A stretch of 64,000 bases of DNA, taken from an uncultured Salinisphaerales bacterium (GTDB lineage Bacteria; Pseudomonadota; Gammaproteobacteria; Nevskiales; CAJXLF01). Every line of letters begins with the position of its first letter. Position 1 is the first letter of the stretch. Both the position numbers and the translations under genes were made by a program. The DNA lies in contig CAJXLF010000001.1 in the NCBI GenBank assembly GCA_913055805.1, forward strand, positions 334,761-398,760, read 5' to 3'. Below, piece by piece: positions 47,552 to 60,574 of this stretch. The notes under the pieces were generated by a model. The model searched no databases. It worked only from the letters and a program-made list of their open reading frames with translations, and had not been told where the DNA came from.

Positions 47552-47671
47552 TTGTCAGGCTGTGTTTTGGCGCGGCCCTCGGCTAGTATGAGTAGAAGGT
47601 AAGGAGAGGGCGCGACTGTTCCGCGTCATAATTATTAGATGAGTGCGGCCACAAGCCGCCGGGAGCTGACA

Positions 47672-50626
47672 ATGAGGAGTGAGAAACGCCGGGGGGTGGC
47701 AGCAGCGCTGTTGCTGACGTTTGGTTTTCTGAATGGCTGCGGTGGCAGTTCAGATGATGATGGCGATGGCGGGGTCAGTACCAAGGCGGAAACCCATACT
47801 GTCTGTGGCGAAGATGCCCAGAAAGAGGCGCTGACCGCTTTCTTCGAGGCCCGCGAAGGCGACATCATCGAATTCTGCGAAGGTGAGTTCGATTTCAGCA
47901 CTGGCCTGACCATGACCGGCAAGAAGGGCATCACCGTTCGCGGCGCCGGTATGGACAAGACCATTTTGTCCTTCGCCAACAGCCCGGCCCAGGATGGTAT
48001 CAACGTCAACCAGACTGATGGCTTCACCATCCAGGATCTCACTGTCTACGATGCACCCGGCAACGGCGTGCGCGTGTTCCGCTCAGAGCACATCACCTTC
48101 CGGCGCGTGAAAATCGGCTGGTCCAACGCCGACCCGGCCTCACCCAACTACGATGCCAGCATGGCGTCCTGGTCGGGTAACGGCGCCTATGCCTTCTATC
48201 CGGTGGTGTCACGCTACATTCTGATCGAGGATTCGGTGTCAATCGGTTCCTCCGACGCCGGCGTCTATGTCGGGCAGTCCAGCGATATTCTGGTACAGCG
48301 TACCGAGGCTTTTCACAATGTGGCGGGCTTTGAGTTCGAGAATACCTATCGCGCCGAATACGTGGATAACGTCGCACACAGCAATGTCGGCGGCTTTCTG
48401 GTGTTCGATTTGCCGGGGCGTGTGCAGTTCGGTGAAAAGAACATCGTGCGTAATAACAAGACCTATAACAACAATATCCCGCAGTTTGCGCCGCGCGGTG
48501 CGATCGTGGCGGTGATTCCTCCCGGCACCGGCATGCTGTTGGCGGCGGCTGATCAGGTGGAGATATATGACAACGAAATCTACGACAACAACACCGTAGG
48601 CATTGCGATTGTGAACTACGGGCTGGCCGATGCCGGCGAGCCGGCCACCAATTACGATTTCTTCCCGGAAGGCATTCATATTTATAACAATGTCTTCCGC
48701 AACAACGGCACCCAGCCGGCGTTGCCTGACCTGGAGCGCAGCGGCTGCCTGGGTAATCCGCTACTGCCGATCCCCGGCCTGCCGGGGCTGGGCGAAGATC
48801 CCAGCTGCCTGGCAGACAACGCCACGGTGCTGCCCACCATCCTGCTGGTGAAGAACCTGGGCAAGAGCGCGCACATCATCTTTGATGGCGGCGAGGATGT
48901 GCCCAACGACTGCGACCAGATACCTGTGGACCGCGACGGCATTCCGCTGACCCAGCCGAATCCGAATGAAACCGACCGGCCCGAACCGCGTACCGACGAA
49001 CGCGGCCGACCCAATCTTTATCAGTTCGACCCGATTCCGGTGTGCAAATGGAATGCCTGGAAGTTCGACGAAGAAGGCCAGCTGAAGAAGCCGGAGAACG
49101 GTCTCTGCGTCGAAGGCAATACCTTCGAGAACCCGGTCAATCCGCTGATCGACGCCTATGCCAATGTGCATTTCGCCACGGCCGATCCCACCGATCCGGC
49201 CAACCTGGTGCCGGCCGACAATACGATTCCGACCGATTGCCCGGTCGTGAGTGCCGACCTGCTGCCCTTGTACAAGCCCGAATTGCCCAGCTTCAAGGCC
49301 AATCCTGCCAATGATCCGCGGCCGTCGCAGGCAGCCCTGGAGCAGGTCTGCAATGCCGGGCAGGCGGGCACCATCAACAGGGAGGCCGTGCTCAACTACA
49401 ACTGCCCGCGGCTGGATCAGTACGGCCTTTATCTGGATGAAGCCGATCCACGCAAGGGGCCGACTGCCCCCGGTGTACCGTTCGACCTGAACAGCATCCT
49501 GTTCTCGGATTACGCCGCCAAGTACCGCTTCATGTTCCTGCCGACCGATGCGGCCGGAAAACCGGTCAAGGCGACCTACCAGGATTCCCAAAACTGCGAG
49601 ACGCTGAATATCTACGACTGCTATTCGCAGACACTCAAGTTCCCGGTGGGCACGGTATTTTCCAAGACCTTCGCCTTCCCTAACGGGGATACCGAAGAGG
49701 TGATCGAGACCCGGTTACTTATCAAACGCCAGAATGCGGATGGCTCTGTTTACTGGGTGGGGCTGCCCTATGAGTGGACCACCCAGAACGGTCAACGCGT
49801 GGCCCTGCTCAAGGTCGAGGGCAATACCGTACCGGTGTCATGGGACTACGATGATCCTGATCCGCGGGTGGTGGACGGCGAGGGGGATCTGCGGCACTAC
49901 ACGGGTTCTACCGACAGTTATGCCATTCCTGATGCCGGCGCCTGCGTTCTCTGTCATAACGGCGATGATCTGGAAGCAGGTTCGCCGCCGATTGGTCCCA
50001 AGATCCGCAATCTCAACCGCGACTATGACTTCCCCGATGTGGGCGTAATGAATCAGCTGGCCTTTATGGAAATGAAGGGCCTGATTGATCTGCCCGATAC
50101 ACCGGCCAATCTGGAGAAACTGCCCAAATGGGATGTGCCCGGCAGTACCGGTGAAACACCGGATTCGGCGGCGGATGTGCATCACCGTGCCCGCGCATTC
50201 CTGGAAGTGAATTGTTATCACTGCCACAACCCGGCCGGTAATGCCCAGAATTCGGGGCTGGTACTGGATTTCTTTACCAACCCGATGACCCAGCGCCAGG
50301 GTATCTGCAAGGTGCCGATTGCTGCCGGCCGGGCGGCTGACTTCGGCAATTATGATATCGAGCCGGGCAATGCCGGCCAGTCGATTCTGCCGTTGCGAGT
50401 GGCCACCACCGAGTCGGGCGCCAGGATGCCGCCACTCGCACGCAGCGTGCCGCAGGCTGAAGCCGTGGAGCTGTTGATGCATTGGGTCGATAACGTGGTC
50501 AGTGGATTTGCCGACCCGGATGCCAATACCTGCGGGGGCGGTGGAGGTGGTTTGCCGTTGCCCAGCATGGTGCCTGCCGGTTCGGAAGTGGCGCCGACGC
50601 AGGCCCAGGAAAAGCCCTGGGGCTAG
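47672..50626 (+). CDS. lipoprotein fusing a parallel beta-helix domain to a diheme c-type cytochrome (SO_2930-like)
   Basis: 984 residues from ATG 47672, with GGGAG upstream; 47639 is an alternative. The lipobox is FLNGC. Residues ~70-400 are a beta-helix: VRGAGMDKTILSF, VRVFRSEHITFRRV, AEYVDNVAHSNVGGFLVFD, VEIYDNEIYDNN. Residues ~580-984 match the SO_2930-type cytochrome: LFSDYAAKYRFMFLPTD, FPVGTVFSKTF, heme motif CVLCH (~758), IGPKIRNLNRDY, second heme motif CYHCH (~848) and ARMPPLARSV. These two families are normally separate adjacent genes; here they are one open frame without a stop. The protein should be periplasmic or outer-membrane bound. Confidence 0.85.
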   Translation: MRSEKRRGVAAALLLTFGFLNGCGGSSDDDGDGGVSTKAETHTVCGEDAQKEALTAFFEAREGDIIEFCEGEFDFSTGLTMTGKKGITVRGAGMDKTILSFANSPAQDGINVNQTDGFTIQDLTVYDAPGNGVRVFRSEHITFRRVKIGWSNADPASPNYDASMASWSGNGAYAFYPVVSRYILIEDSVSIGSSDAGVYVGQSSDILVQRTEAFHNVAGFEFENTYRAEYVDNVAHSNVGGFLVFDLPGRVQFGEKNIVRNNKTYNNNIPQFAPRGAIVAVIPPGTGMLLAAADQVEIYDNEIYDNNTVGIAIVNYGLADAGEPATNYDFFPEGIHIYNNVFRNNGTQPALPDLERSGCLGNPLLPIPGLPGLGEDPSCLADNATVLPTILLVKNLGKSAHIIFDGGEDVPNDCDQIPVDRDGIPLTQPNPNETDRPEPRTDERGRPNLYQFDPIPVCKWNAWKFDEEGQLKKPENGLCVEGNTFENPVNPLIDAYANVHFATADPTDPANLVPADNTIPTDCPVVSADLLPLYKPELPSFKANPANDPRPSQAALEQVCNAGQAGTINREAVLNYNCPRLDQYGLYLDEADPRKGPTAPGVPFDLNSILFSDYAAKYRFMFLPTDAAGKPVKATYQDSQNCETLNIYDCYSQTLKFPVGTVFSKTFAFPNGDTEEVIETRLLIKRQNADGSVYWVGLPYEWTTQNGQRVALLKVEGNTVPVSWDYDDPDPRVVDGEGDLRHYTGSTDSYAIPDAGACVLCHNGDDLEAGSPPIGPKIRNLNRDYDFPDVGVMNQLAFMEMKGLIDLPDTPANLEKLPKWDVPGSTGETPDSAADVHHRARAFLEVNCYHCHNPAGNAQNSGLVLDFFTNPMTQRQGICKVPIAAGRAADFGNYDIEPGNAGQSILPLRVATTESGARMPPLARSVPQAEAVELLMHWVDNVVSGFADPDANTCGGGGGGLPLPSMVPAGSEVAPTQAQEKPWG

Positions 50627-50680: not shown

Positions 50681-50843
50681 GTTCTTGGTTGCAGTGCACA
50701 AAAAGTGCTATTCTCGAATTAATTGACAACCCGATTTTTCAGATTCGGGTGCGCAGGAGCAGTGCCGGGTCGCCGGCCAGGCAGGATATCTCATACAGGC
50801 CAGCATGCGACGCGTGCCGGCCGATAACGGTTTTGGAATACGA

Positions 50844-52331
50844 ATGAAACGCAGCTTGAAAGCCGCCAAGTCGGCCATGGTCAGTGCCAATACCTATGAT
50901 GAATGGAAAGCCGCAGCGGTTGCACATGACCGGCTGACGGGCATGGATGAATGGCGGGCCGAAGATTTTTCACCGGATTATGACTATCGCCTGATCAAGT
51001 CGCGCCTGGCCGAAATTCGCAAGCTGCGCCGTGAAAACGACCCCATGGGCCTGGCCTTCATGCTCAACGAGGGGTTGCATGGCAACCTCGCCAACATGGC
51101 CAATCCGGCGTTGTACATGCATGCCCAGTTCGGCACCAAGCAGTTGCTGACGGATTATCTGCGGGAGGTATCCGAGGCCCTGAATTACCTTTGCGACTGT
51201 GATTCCGAGGCTTTCCCCTACGACCAGAAGATCAAGTTTTTCCAGCGTACCGGCCGCAGTTTCGGTCGTTCCGCACTGATGTTGTCCGGTGGGGCGACCC
51301 TGGGCATGTTCCATCTGGGTGTGATCAAGGGTCTTTTCGAGCAGGGGCTGCTGCCGCGGGTGATTTCCGGTTCCAGCGCCGGTTCGATTATTGCGGCGGT
51401 CGTGGGCACGCATACCGACGAAGAACTGGTGCAGATGTTCGACCCCGAATATCTGACCCTGCAGGCCTGGCGTGGGCTTGGTGTCTGGGGCGCGCTCAAG
51501 GAACGCGCCATCATGGATGGTCGTCAGTTGTCGGAATGTATTCGCGACAATGTCGGGGACTTTACCTTTGAAGAAGCCTTTGAGCGCACGGGCCGTATTA
51601 TCAACATCACCGTGTCGCCGGCCGATCCGCATCAGCAGGGGCGCATCCTCAATTACCTGACTTCGCCCAACGTGCTGGTGCGCCGCGCCTCTCTGGCCTC
51701 CTGCGCCATTCCCGGCGTATTCCCCGCGGTGGAACTGGAAGGCAAGAACATTCAGGGCGAAGTGGTGCCCTATATGCCCGGTCGGCGCTGGGTAGACGGC
51801 ACCATCGAGGCCGATCTGCCGATGCTGCGTCTGGCGCGCATGCATAACGTCAATCATTACATCGTCAGCCAGACCAATCCGCACGTGGTGCCTTTCCTGA
51901 CGGAGAAGGAACAGTTGCGTGAAACCGGCCTGTTGCCGTTTGCCAAGGACATGGTGACAACACACAGCCGCAATACGCTGAAGCTGGCTCGCCGCCACAT
52001 GGGACCCAATGTGGTCTCCAACCTGATCGGCAAGGTGCATGCCATCACTGACCAGAAGTACAGCGGCGATATCAACATTTTTCCCAAACAGACGCCGGCC
52101 AAGCTGCTGCGCATGTTGTCCAATCCCACGCCGGACGACATCCAGAACTACATCGTCGAGGGTGAACGGGCCACCTGGCCCAAGGTGGAGCGGATCCATA
52201 ACAGCACCATGCTGAGCCGCACTTTCGACACCTGCCTGCTGCGACTCAAACACCGCACTTATGGTGACGAGCAGCTCAAGCAGGAATCCAAGAAAGTCGT
52301 GCAACTTCTCAATCGCCGCCGGCGTTCCTGA
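50844..52331 (+). CDS. patatin-like phospholipase with N-terminal DUF3336
   Basis: 495 residues from ATG 50844 (MKRSLKAAK), with GGAATACG upstream; 50805 is an alternative. The DUF3336 part (TYDEWKAAAVAHDRLTGMDEWRAED) occupies the first ~140 residues. The patatin domain has the oxyanion GGATLGMFHLG, the nucleophile GSSAGS and the catalytic Asp in DGTIEADLPM. Proteins of this make-up include eukaryotic triacylglycerol lipases and proteobacterial relatives. No signal peptide, so it acts inside the cell, perhaps on storage lipid or membrane. Upstream gap 50681-50843 holds no gene. Confidence 0.9.
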   Translation: MKRSLKAAKSAMVSANTYDEWKAAAVAHDRLTGMDEWRAEDFSPDYDYRLIKSRLAEIRKLRRENDPMGLAFMLNEGLHGNLANMANPALYMHAQFGTKQLLTDYLREVSEALNYLCDCDSEAFPYDQKIKFFQRTGRSFGRSALMLSGGATLGMFHLGVIKGLFEQGLLPRVISGSSAGSIIAAVVGTHTDEELVQMFDPEYLTLQAWRGLGVWGALKERAIMDGRQLSECIRDNVGDFTFEEAFERTGRIINITVSPADPHQQGRILNYLTSPNVLVRRASLASCAIPGVFPAVELEGKNIQGEVVPYMPGRRWVDGTIEADLPMLRLARMHNVNHYIVSQTNPHVVPFLTEKEQLRETGLLPFAKDMVTTHSRNTLKLARRHMGPNVVSNLIGKVHAITDQKYSGDINIFPKQTPAKLLRMLSNPTPDDIQNYIVEGERATWPKVERIHNSTMLSRTFDTCLLRLKHRTYGDEQLKQESKKVVQLLNRRRRS

Positions 52332-52451: not shown

Positions 52452-54818
52452 ATGGTGACAAGATTTGCCCAGCATCTGGTTCGCTGGCGCTATTTCATTC
52501 TTCTGGCAGCCCTGGTTGTGGTGGCCGCTGCCGGTTATGGCGCCAGTAAACTGCAGCTCAGTACGGATCTGGAGGTTTTCTTCCATCCTGACGATCCCCA
52601 ACTCCATCTCTACGACAAACAGCGTGATACCTATACGCACGACGACAACCTGTTTTTTGTCATAGCGCCTGAGAACGAGCTTGAACGGGGTGCCGCCTTC
52701 AGCCGCGAAATCATGATGCTGGTGGAGGAACTGACCGAGCGCGCCTGGCAGATTCCCCATGCGCTGCGCGTGGATTCCCTGACCAACTACCAGCACACCC
52801 GTGCGATGGGAGATGATCTTGAGGTCAAACCGCTGGTGGAGAACGCAGAGTCGCTTTCACACCTGGATCTGATCGAGGCGATGAACATTGCACTGGCCGA
52901 ACCGACGATCGCAGGACGTCTGATTTCACCGGATGCGTCGGTGACCGGCATTAACATCACTATTCATCTGCCGGGTGAAAACCGGGCGAAGGAAATTCCC
53001 GAAGCGGTCAAGGCAGCACGGGCCCTGCGCGATGAAATGAAGGCCAAATACCCCGGTGTCTTTATCGGCATCTCCGGCAAGACAGCCGGCAACAACGCTT
53101 TCTCCGAATCCGCTCTCTATGACATGACGCATATCGTGCCCATTGCATTGTGTATTGCACTGGGCCTGATTGCGTTCTACATCTGGTTCGCCAGCGGCAG
53201 CGTGCTGACCGCCGCTACCGGTACTTTCACCACCCTGGTGATCATCATTGCCGCGGTTGCCTGTGCCTTGGGCATGGCGGGCTGGATCGGTTATGGCGTA
53301 ACACCGCCCATGTCCAATTCACCGACCATGATCCTGACCCTGGCGGTGGCCGATTCCATGCATTTACTGGTGACGTTCTTCCAGCAGATGCGCCTGGGCA
53401 AACCCCGGGCTGAGGCCATGGTGGAAAGTCTGCGTATCAATTTCCAGGCGGTGTTCCTGACCAGCGTGACGACGGCCATTGGTTTCCTGGCGCTGAATTT
53501 TTCCGACTCCCCGCCCATGCACGATCTGGGCAACGTAGTCGCCATTGGCGTGATGGCGGCCTGGTTGTTCACCATCACCCTGTTGCCGTCACTGATGCTG
53601 ATTCTGCCGGTGCGCGTACACAAGGAACATACGGAACAGGTGGGCGCCATGAAGCGCCTGGCCGACTGGGTGATTGCCAACCGGGTCCTGTCATTCGTGG
53701 TGACCGGCGCGCTGATTGTGACCGCGGCATCCTTTCTGCCCAAAAATGAACTCTACGATGTCTGGGCCGAGTACTTCAGCGACCGCACCGAGATTCGCCG
53801 GGATACCGATTTCCTGCGTGCGCATCTGGCCGGCATGAACAGCGTGGAGTTTTCGGTCGGGGCTGCAGATTCCGGCGGTATTACCGACCCTGAGTATCTG
53901 GATAGGCTGGAAGCCTTCGCCGAATGGCTACGTGGCCAGGAGCATGTGAAACATGTGCTCAGTTTCACGGACATCATGAAGCGTCTGAACAAGAACATGC
54001 ACAACGATGATCCGGCCTGGTATCAGTTGCCCGATGAGCGCGAACTGGCGGCCCAGTACCTGCTGCTGTATGAATTCTCGTTGCCCTTTGGTCTGGACGT
54101 GAATAACCAGATCAATCTGGACAAATCGGCCACTCGCCTGATCGTTTCACTGGACAGCTCATCCACCAAGGTGATTCTGAAACTGCAGAGCGACATCCAG
54201 GCCTGGCAGGCTGAGAACCTGCCGGAATACATGCGTCACGACGGTATCAGCTCGGATGTGATCTTCGCCCACCTGGGGCGGCGTAACGTCATCAGCATGC
54301 TGGAGGGCTCCACGCTGGGTCTGCTGGCGATATCGCTGATTCTCGCGCTGGCGCTGCGTTCGGTGAAGTACGGTTTCATCAGCCTGTTCGCCAATGTGCT
54401 GCCGATCGTGGTGGGCTTCGGTGTCTGGGGCCTGCTGGTGGGGCGTATCGGCCTGGGCATGTCCATTGTCTCGGGTATGACCATGGGTATTGTGGTGGAT
54501 TACACCGTGCACTTGCTGGCCAAATACCGGCTGGCCAAACGCGAACATGGCTTCACTACGGAAGCGGCGATCCGTTATGCCTTCAGTACCGTGGGCGTGG
54601 CGCTGTTCATCACTACCGTGATTCTGACCGCCAATTTCGGCTTGCTGAGCTTCTCCGATTTCGCCTTGAATGCCGATACCGGACAGTTGACCGCCGGCAT
54701 TATCCTGATCGCATTGATCACGGATTTCTTTTTCCTGCCGCCCTTGTTGCTGTTACTCGACAGAAAGAAAGAGGAAAATGTGGCGGATTACGGCGAGGAT
54801 GCCGTAGAGCCCGTATAA
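52452..54818 (+). CDS. RND-superfamily transporter, HAE3/MMPL type
   Basis: 788 residues, twelve helices in two halves, each with a periplasmic loop; shorter than AcrB-type pumps. The N-terminus LVRWRYFILLAALVVVAAAGYG, STDLEVFFHPDDP and helix 4 proton acid in MILTLAVADSMHLLVTFFQQM are typical. The second half mirrors it with IVSGMTMGIVVDYTVHLLAKY. HAE3/COG1033 members move hopanoids, fatty acids or other lipids and often work without an outer membrane channel. No adaptor gene is near. It follows the patatin gene by 120 bp, which suggests a shared lipid role but perhaps a separate promoter. Confidence 0.9.
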   Translation: MVTRFAQHLVRWRYFILLAALVVVAAAGYGASKLQLSTDLEVFFHPDDPQLHLYDKQRDTYTHDDNLFFVIAPENELERGAAFSREIMMLVEELTERAWQIPHALRVDSLTNYQHTRAMGDDLEVKPLVENAESLSHLDLIEAMNIALAEPTIAGRLISPDASVTGINITIHLPGENRAKEIPEAVKAARALRDEMKAKYPGVFIGISGKTAGNNAFSESALYDMTHIVPIALCIALGLIAFYIWFASGSVLTAATGTFTTLVIIIAAVACALGMAGWIGYGVTPPMSNSPTMILTLAVADSMHLLVTFFQQMRLGKPRAEAMVESLRINFQAVFLTSVTTAIGFLALNFSDSPPMHDLGNVVAIGVMAAWLFTITLLPSLMLILPVRVHKEHTEQVGAMKRLADWVIANRVLSFVVTGALIVTAASFLPKNELYDVWAEYFSDRTEIRRDTDFLRAHLAGMNSVEFSVGAADSGGITDPEYLDRLEAFAEWLRGQEHVKHVLSFTDIMKRLNKNMHNDDPAWYQLPDERELAAQYLLLYEFSLPFGLDVNNQINLDKSATRLIVSLDSSSTKVILKLQSDIQAWQAENLPEYMRHDGISSDVIFAHLGRRNVISMLEGSTLGLLAISLILALALRSVKYGFISLFANVLPIVVGFGVWGLLVGRIGLGMSIVSGMTMGIVVDYTVHLLAKYRLAKREHGFTTEAAIRYAFSTVGVALFITTVILTANFGLLSFSDFALNADTGQLTAGIILIALITDFFFLPPLLLLLDRKKEENVADYGEDAVEPV

Positions 54819-58858: not shown

Positions 58859-60574
58859 ATGAAAGAGATAAATAGGCAAAGAAGAGCATTATTGGCCGGG
58901 CTGGGACAGCTGGGTGCGCTGGCCGGCATGAATGCTTTACTGCCGGCCTGGGCGCGGGTGGCGGGGCAAGTACTGGGCGGAGGTGAGCGCCACCGTGATG
59001 TGCTGATCGACCTGGCTATTGAGAAACTGAATACCCCCATTGCCGGGCAAATGGGCACGGTGACCGCCGTGAACGGTACGGTGCCGGGGCCGCTGCTGGA
59101 GTTTTATGAAGGTGGCAGTGTCACGCTCAATGTGAGCAATCACATGGCAGTGGACAGTTCCATTCACTGGCACGGGATCCTTCTGCCTTACCAGATGGAC
59201 GGTGTGCCGGGCGTGACCTTTCCGGGTATCCGTCCGGGTGAAAACTTCACTTATCAATATCCGGTAAAGCAGAGCGGCACCTACTGGTATCACAGTCATT
59301 CCGGGCTGCAGGAACAGAGCGGCCTGTATGGCCCACTGGTGATTCATCCCGCCGAGCCAGAGTCCTTCAGCTTCGATCGTGATTACATCGTGATGTTGTC
59401 CGACTGGACCTTCGAAGATCCGCATGACGTGTTTGCGAAACTGAAGGCTTCCAGCGATTACTACAATTTCCAGCGTCCCACCTTCGGCGACTTTCTGGGT
59501 GACATGGATCAGCAGGGTTTCAAGGCGGCACTGGCTGACCGGCTGGCCTGGGCCCGTATGCGCATGGACCCAGCCGATCTCGCCGATGTCACCGGTTATA
59601 CCTACAGCTACCTGATGAACGGCCGGCATGCGGCCGGTAACTGGACGGGCTTGTTCGCGCCGGGAGAAACCATACGCCTGCGCTTCATTAATGGTTCGGC
59701 CATGAGTATTTTTGATGTGCGCATTCCCGGACTCGATATGACCGTGGTGGCCGCCGATGGTCAGCCGGTGAAGCCGGTGACCGTGCAGGAATTCCGCATC
59801 GGTACAGCGGAAACCTACGACGTGCTGGTGCAGCCAGGCAGCGAGAAGGCTTATACCGTTTTCGCCGAATCGCTGGACCGCAGTGGCCATGCCCGCGGTA
59901 CGCTGGCGACGCAGCCAGGGTTGCAGGCCGCCGTGCCCGAGCCGCGCAAACGTCCGCTGCGGTCCATGGCGGCGATGGGGCATGGCATGGATCATTCTTC
60001 AATGAAAGGAATGTCCCACATGGACCATGACATGTCAGGTCATGCCGGCCACGATATGAAGATGGATGCCATGCACGAGCATGGCAGCGGCGCGGCCATG
60101 CTGGCGGAGAATCCGCAGAACCAGCTGTCTGAACCGGGAGTGGGTCTGGAAGATGCGGGTCACCGTGTACTGGTCTACAGCGATCTGGAAGCGCCGGGCC
60201 CCTGGCCGGATCAGCGCGCACCCTCGCGCGAAGTCGAACTGCATCTGACCGGTAACATGGAACGCTATATGTGGTCCTTTGACGGCAAGCAGTTTCATGA
60301 AGTGAGGGAGCCGATTCACTTTCACCATGGAGAACGCCTGCGTCTGACCATGGTGAACGACACCATGATGGAACACCCGATTCACCTGCATGGTATGTGG
60401 ATGGAACTGGTGAACGGCGCGAAAAACAAGCCGCGCAAACACACGATTCTGATCAAGCCGGGCGAAAAGATTGCTCTGGATATCAGCGCGGATGCGCCAG
60501 GTCGCTGGGCCTTCCACTGCCACCTGCTGTTTCACATGCATATGGGCATGATGCGCGTCGTGGAGGTGAGCTGA
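58859..60574 (+). CDS. copA: CopA-type multicopper oxidase, Tat-exported
   Basis: 571 residues. The N-terminus RQRRALLAGLGQLGAL is a twin-arginine signal, so it folds with copper before export. Copper-ligand clusters are HWHG, HSHSG, HPIHLHG and HCHLLFHMHMGMM, with the type 1 ligands in the last. Between domains is a Met/His-rich insert (MAAMGHGMDHSSM to MHEHG, ~364-406) for copper binding. It oxidises Cu(I) in the periplasm. No Shine-Dalgarno precedes the ATG, and the upstream promoter leaves almost no leader. The stop overlaps copB (TGATG). Confidence 0.95.
   Translation: MKEINRQRRALLAGLGQLGALAGMNALLPAWARVAGQVLGGGERHRDVLIDLAIEKLNTPIAGQMGTVTAVNGTVPGPLLEFYEGGSVTLNVSNHMAVDSSIHWHGILLPYQMDGVPGVTFPGIRPGENFTYQYPVKQSGTYWYHSHSGLQEQSGLYGPLVIHPAEPESFSFDRDYIVMLSDWTFEDPHDVFAKLKASSDYYNFQRPTFGDFLGDMDQQGFKAALADRLAWARMRMDPADLADVTGYTYSYLMNGRHAAGNWTGLFAPGETIRLRFINGSAMSIFDVRIPGLDMTVVAADGQPVKPVTVQEFRIGTAETYDVLVQPGSEKAYTVFAESLDRSGHARGTLATQPGLQAAVPEPRKRPLRSMAAMGHGMDHSSMKGMSHMDHDMSGHAGHDMKMDAMHEHGSGAAMLAENPQNQLSEPGVGLEDAGHRVLVYSDLEAPGPWPDQRAPSREVELHLTGNMERYMWSFDGKQFHEVREPIHFHHGERLRLTMVNDTMMEHPIHLHGMWMELVNGAKNKPRKHTILIKPGEKIALDISADAPGRWAFHCHLLFHMHMGMMRVVEVS

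Follow-up and report, generated by a model that had tools for sequence, protein, structure and literature searches.

The closest described system to the gene discussed here is the TIGR03805–TIGR03806 (SO2930) gene pair, in which separate genes, arranged in the order of the two domains here, encode a parallel beta-helix protein and a two-haem cytochrome; this is their usual form. In a sample of 299 genomes from the phylum, one family is almost never present without the other: about 21 genomes have them as neighbouring genes and 6 as a fusion, which bears out the expectation of an earlier sequence-only reading that they normally occupy two neighbouring genes. Such two-gene versions are readily found in relatives, and in named genomes the partners usually overlap or are no more than a few bases apart, and both carry a signal peptide, which in most proteobacteria has a lipobox. 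Unfused pairs are also present in Bacteroidota and other groups. In 12 of 80 loci (L099, L102, L103, L111, L112, L120, L122, L124, L127, L130, L135, and L152), the beta-helix has no detectable cytochrome beside it. Our literature search returned no functional study of the pair, and the sole mention of SO_2930 in the literature found is in a table listing predicted outer-membrane or extracellular cytochromes of Shewanella (PMC4837345).

In the window, that is, the whole 64,000-nucleotide stretch of DNA analysed here, the two domains share one chain. A frame on the plus strand, to which the coordinates of its parts below refer, runs uninterrupted from an ATG at 47672 to a stop codon ending at 50626 and encodes a 984-residue fused beta-helix/diheme cytochrome lipoprotein, confirming the single frame that the sequence-only reading had described. 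An alternative start at 47639 is possible, but it is 47672 that has a Shine-Dalgarno-like GGGAG upstream. The amino-terminal half belongs to the beta-helix family as proposed: residues 56–354 (47837–48733) match TIGR03805 in an NCBIfam search with 278.9 bits (E = 4.5e-83), well above the NCBI curated cut-off of 141.5 bits for this model (beta_helix_1). The assignment of the other half to the SO_2930-type family stands only in part. Residues 577–941 (49400–50494) align with TIGR03806 over model positions 1–313 of 314, both CxxCH motifs included, but the score of 254.3 bits (E = 1.5e-75) falls under the curated cut-off of 313.3 bits, so that by sequence this half is a divergent relative of TIGR03806/SO2930 and not a formal member. 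Compared with the gene pair, the host protein differs in this lower cytochrome score, in being a single chain with a single signal peptide, and in the roughly 150–230 residues that separate the two cores. That signal peptide (47672–47740) is the first of the two and carries a lipobox, FLNGC, whose Cys23 is shared by all 12 fused homologues in alignment A1; the second is absent. The lipobox indicates a lipoprotein, and the non-Asp +2 residue suggests placement at the outer membrane. An Rfam search of the 64-kb window gave no match; promoter and terminator scans were also run, and promoter-like sites were no commoner than in shuffled sequence.

To a chimera created by misassembly or a frameshift we assign virtually no probability, nothing having been found in its favour. 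No frameshift or join is found at 49000–49450 (residues 443–593), the interval that the sequence-only reading had marked for checking; two homologues with 65% identity to the host protein (G030 and G024) align through it, from residue 9 or 13 to residue 984, in one stop-free stretch. An artefact is rejected because the same fusion recurs in independent genomes, and the sequence across the junction is conserved among them. A protein search of the host and 40 relatives yielded matches in 30 of the 41 genomes, and many of these are frames of about 1,000 residues without a stop. Of 85 genomes of the order covered by a profile search, 52 have the fusion, usually as a full-length frame of that size. 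The nearest named organisms with the fusion belong to Nevskiales: Fontimonas thermophila, Stagnimonas, and a Nevskiaceae metagenome-assembled genome. The host itself carries a second fused copy (G000:C3:240511-243456; L055:8527-11580), and within the order the fusion has been kept in at least two lineages of paralogues. What these genomes carry is the TIGR03805–SO2930 pair in a naturally occurring, conserved single-chain form. Tandemly duplicated fused genes occur in several genomes (G015:C386:10152-16253, G011:C125, and L086:2737-8937).

The history of the fusion was approached with a quick tree of 82 fused or paired units, built from both domains over 711 columns. The 31 fusions with long linkers, from Nevskiales, Moraxellales, Alcanivorax, Marinobacter, Zhongshania, and others, form one all-fused clade without a single unfused member (SH-aLRT 100); four compact fusions from Planctomycetota form a separate clade (support 99), and other compact fusions lie elsewhere in the tree. 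Given its well supported branches, the tree requires at least two switches between the fused and unfused states, a count that does not distinguish gain from loss. Within the fused clade, the host's second paralogue belongs to a different branch, with Zhongshania closest to it. The sequence-only reading had argued from the fusion that the two halves act as one complex. In favour of this are the recurrence of the fusion and the loss of the second signal peptide, from which a 1:1 single-chain complex can soundly be inferred as the natural, well supported reading; at a single locus the partnership is common but not obligatory.

Structure prediction adds to this picture. A full-length AlphaFold2 model (pLDDT 81, pTM 0.85) folds residues of about 40–524 (47789–49243) into a right-handed beta-helix, the fold of AlgE-type mannuronan C5-epimerases, and extends it over much of the apparent linker, which is therefore partly additional beta-helix; this corrects the simple view of two domains and a connector. 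The best structural match is the alginate epimerase/lyase 8ja4 (Z 31.8, 1.9 Å over 284 aligned residues), with AlgE4 and RbmB also close (Z 28.7–31.8 across these matches). The likeness is one of fold: identity to these proteins is only about 17–22%, and the matched structures have no haem part. Sequence searches against solved structures returned only short cytochrome or phage-appendage matches. A set of polar residues on the beta-helix (D195, Y199, Q202, E221, and E223) is highly conserved and could serve binding only.

Modelled alone, the two-haem domain is predicted with higher confidence (pLDDT 91, pTM 0.90) and consists of a beta-sheet part that runs up to the first CxxCH and, after it, a small cytochrome c-like half that bears the second. 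The two motifs, placed by the sequence-only reading near residues 758 and 848, are C758VLCH (residues 758–762, 49943–49957) and C848YHCH (residues 848–852, 50213–50227), the latter in a class I cytochrome c-like half with a PSCyt1 match at residues 848–921. Both are unvarying in 66 relatives, as are Lys617, Lys665, Glu679, Trp695, Lys880, and Met919. Judging from its invariance, Met919 (50426–50428) is the likely second axial ligand of haem 2. Haem 1 may be open or reactive, because no distal Met or His ligand for it is conserved among the same 66 relatives. Cytochrome c maturation genes are present in the host genome.

The portion of this domain made up of the beta-sheet and the haem-1 site (residues of about 567–806, 49370–50089) can be compared with cytochromes P460 and c'-beta, in which a beta-sheet haem domain likewise ends in CxxCH and a lysine occupies a matching motif. 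Foldseek alone gave no significant match for the two-haem domain. Cytochrome c'-beta and P460 chains fill the first six places among the structural matches to the haem-1 part (Z 5.7 for c'-beta; Z 5.2 for P460, over 133 of 160 residues), weak values that lie below 6, within the range that the tool itself ascribes to chance. The P460 family model PF16694 matches 21 of the 66 relatives at E ≤ 1 (best 0.0012), and in 3 of 10 inspected relatives its match spans approximately the region from FPxGT to the first CxxCH; scores in relatives inspected singly are 10.6–13.2 bits, under the gathering score of 27 bits, and the host protein has no match at E ≤ 1. Lys665 (49664–49666), in an FPxGTxxxK motif, falls in register with the lysine of the P460 motif DGTxxxK, K106 in AL212, which we take to be the haem cross-linking lysine, in keeping with the title of a PDB entry for a K106L mutant. 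These observations, and the invariance of Lys665, Glu679, and Trp695, raise a rival explanation: the haem-1 domain would be a P460/c'-beta-type site and the protein a self-contained oxidase that acts on a small molecule (hydroxylamine or nitric oxide) and has its own haem for electron exit; Lys665 would be, or once have been, a haem cross-link and Glu679 the distal acid, and the beta-helix would only anchor the protein to matrix polysaccharide. Taken as a whole we regard this as possible, though rather unlikely. Glu679 (49706–49708), part of an invariant E-T-R, is possibly equivalent to the distal acidic residue of P460. Against the rival, column shuffles that kept CxxCH reached the observed P460 profile score in 11–21 of 100 trials, the inclusion of divergent relatives brought no improvement, and an hhalign value of 92.7% is discounted since that alignment included signal peptides. 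Sequence homology to P460 is not supported, the controlled hhalign and HMM tests being not significant; structure and register are what the resemblance rests on, and the fusion further differs in its extra second haem. The P460 likeness is a lead, not a finding. The bolder extension, whereby the SO2930 module at large would be an unrecognised two-haem P460 relative, with a cross-linkable lysine, a distal glutamate, and an electron-exit haem c, mounted on a beta-helix or a glucose/sorbosone dehydrogenase (GSDH) domain to give single-chain periplasmic oxidases, seems to us doubtful.

The neighbours of the fusion in the window (an amidase, a patatin, and an MMPL transporter) are not kept beside it in relatives, so that context names no pathway and an operon was rejected as a functional clue. 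Downstream lie a DUF3336 patatin (50805–52331) and, on the same strand as the patatin, an MMPL/HAE3-type RND transporter (52452–54818), and the window also encodes a CopA-type copper-resistance multicopper oxidase (58859–60574; TIGR01480, 786 bits). Only a few loci share an AraC-type regulator or an M19-like lipoprotein near the fusion. Regulators of the AraC type lie near fused or paired genes in L045, L056, L057, L058, L061, L064, L079, L081, and L082; one that was tested is QhpR/CypR-like, below cut-off. The lipoprotein, of about 800 residues with a weak Peptidase_M19 match (L087:3290-5758, L088:3125-5725, and L052:9963-12296), is encoded by the gene immediately upstream in Alcanivorax, Marinobacter, and G030; some 4.5 kb separate a homologue from the host's second fused copy.

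The fusion is widespread among related bacteria, many of them hydrocarbon degraders. The identity of several named holders (Alcanivorax, Marinobacter, Hydrocarboniphaga, and Fontimonas) brings to mind a protein that takes part in using alkanes or oil at the cell surface, as does the presence of AlkB in 51 of 52 genomes of the order with the fusion compared with 21 of 33 without (Fisher p = 2.6e-5, kinship ignored). The host has three AlkB-like genes, two with a carboxy-terminal rubredoxin (G000:C9:66780-68174 and G000:C9:136092-137465) and a third without (C3:118108-119259). However, AlkB hardly separates fusion-bearing from fusion-less genomes within genus g11, the immediate neighbourhood contains no recognised alkane gene, and the unfused pairs extend to Bacteroidota and beyond; we consider a role in alkane use improbable and treat the co-occurrence as a hint only.

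A further comparison comes from proteins in which the two-haem module is attached to a different partner. In GSDH–two-haem proteins (L031, L074, and L075), whose holders include G286, G226, and a member of the order Nevskiales, it stands carboxy-terminal to a GSDH (PF07995) domain, so that the amino-terminal half is sugar-dehydrogenase-like and not a beta-helix; 13 GSDH-linked or similar divergent copies keep the invariant lysine and the E-T-R. Loci at which an SO2930-like module follows GSDH, or sits in a frame of like appearance, include L074:4869-8459, L075:5383-11499, L031, and L194-L204; several belong to the same order. Because the same module follows sugar-dehydrogenase domains elsewhere, it may by analogy be a built-in electron acceptor for its partner domain. 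The explanation that we tentatively favour, at somewhat under an even chance, is a single-chain TIGR03805–SO2930 pair that would be exported as a lipidated protein and retained at the outer membrane. Its beta-helix, built like AlgE epimerases/lyases and RbmB, would grip carbohydrate or another extended substrate, and the two-haem module would accept electrons from a reaction at or near that substrate, with haem 1 as the putative active site or point of entry, while haem 2 (His/Met919) presumably hands electrons to soluble periplasmic cytochromes. The attachment to GSDH domains is also compatible with a relay or attachment protein serving other oxidoreductases, neither half being an enzyme and the beta-helix acting as a scaffold as in NosD, which is among its structural and Pfam matches; that no neighbouring enzyme is conserved also fits. 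We judge such a relay unlikely, since the highly conserved polar residues of the beta-helix and of the haem-1 domain (K617, K665, and E679) suggest more than scaffolding.

New here are the AlgE-type match of the beta-helix, the occurrence of the module after GSDH domains, and the weak structural match to c'-beta/P460. The TIGR03805–SO2930 pair is widespread and apparently uncharacterised, and in its stable single-chain form a single gene suffices for expression, deletion, and crystallisation. Concrete first assays, namely, sugar oxidation and hydroxylamine or nitric oxide chemistry, follow from the GSDH fusions and the possibly P460-like haem.
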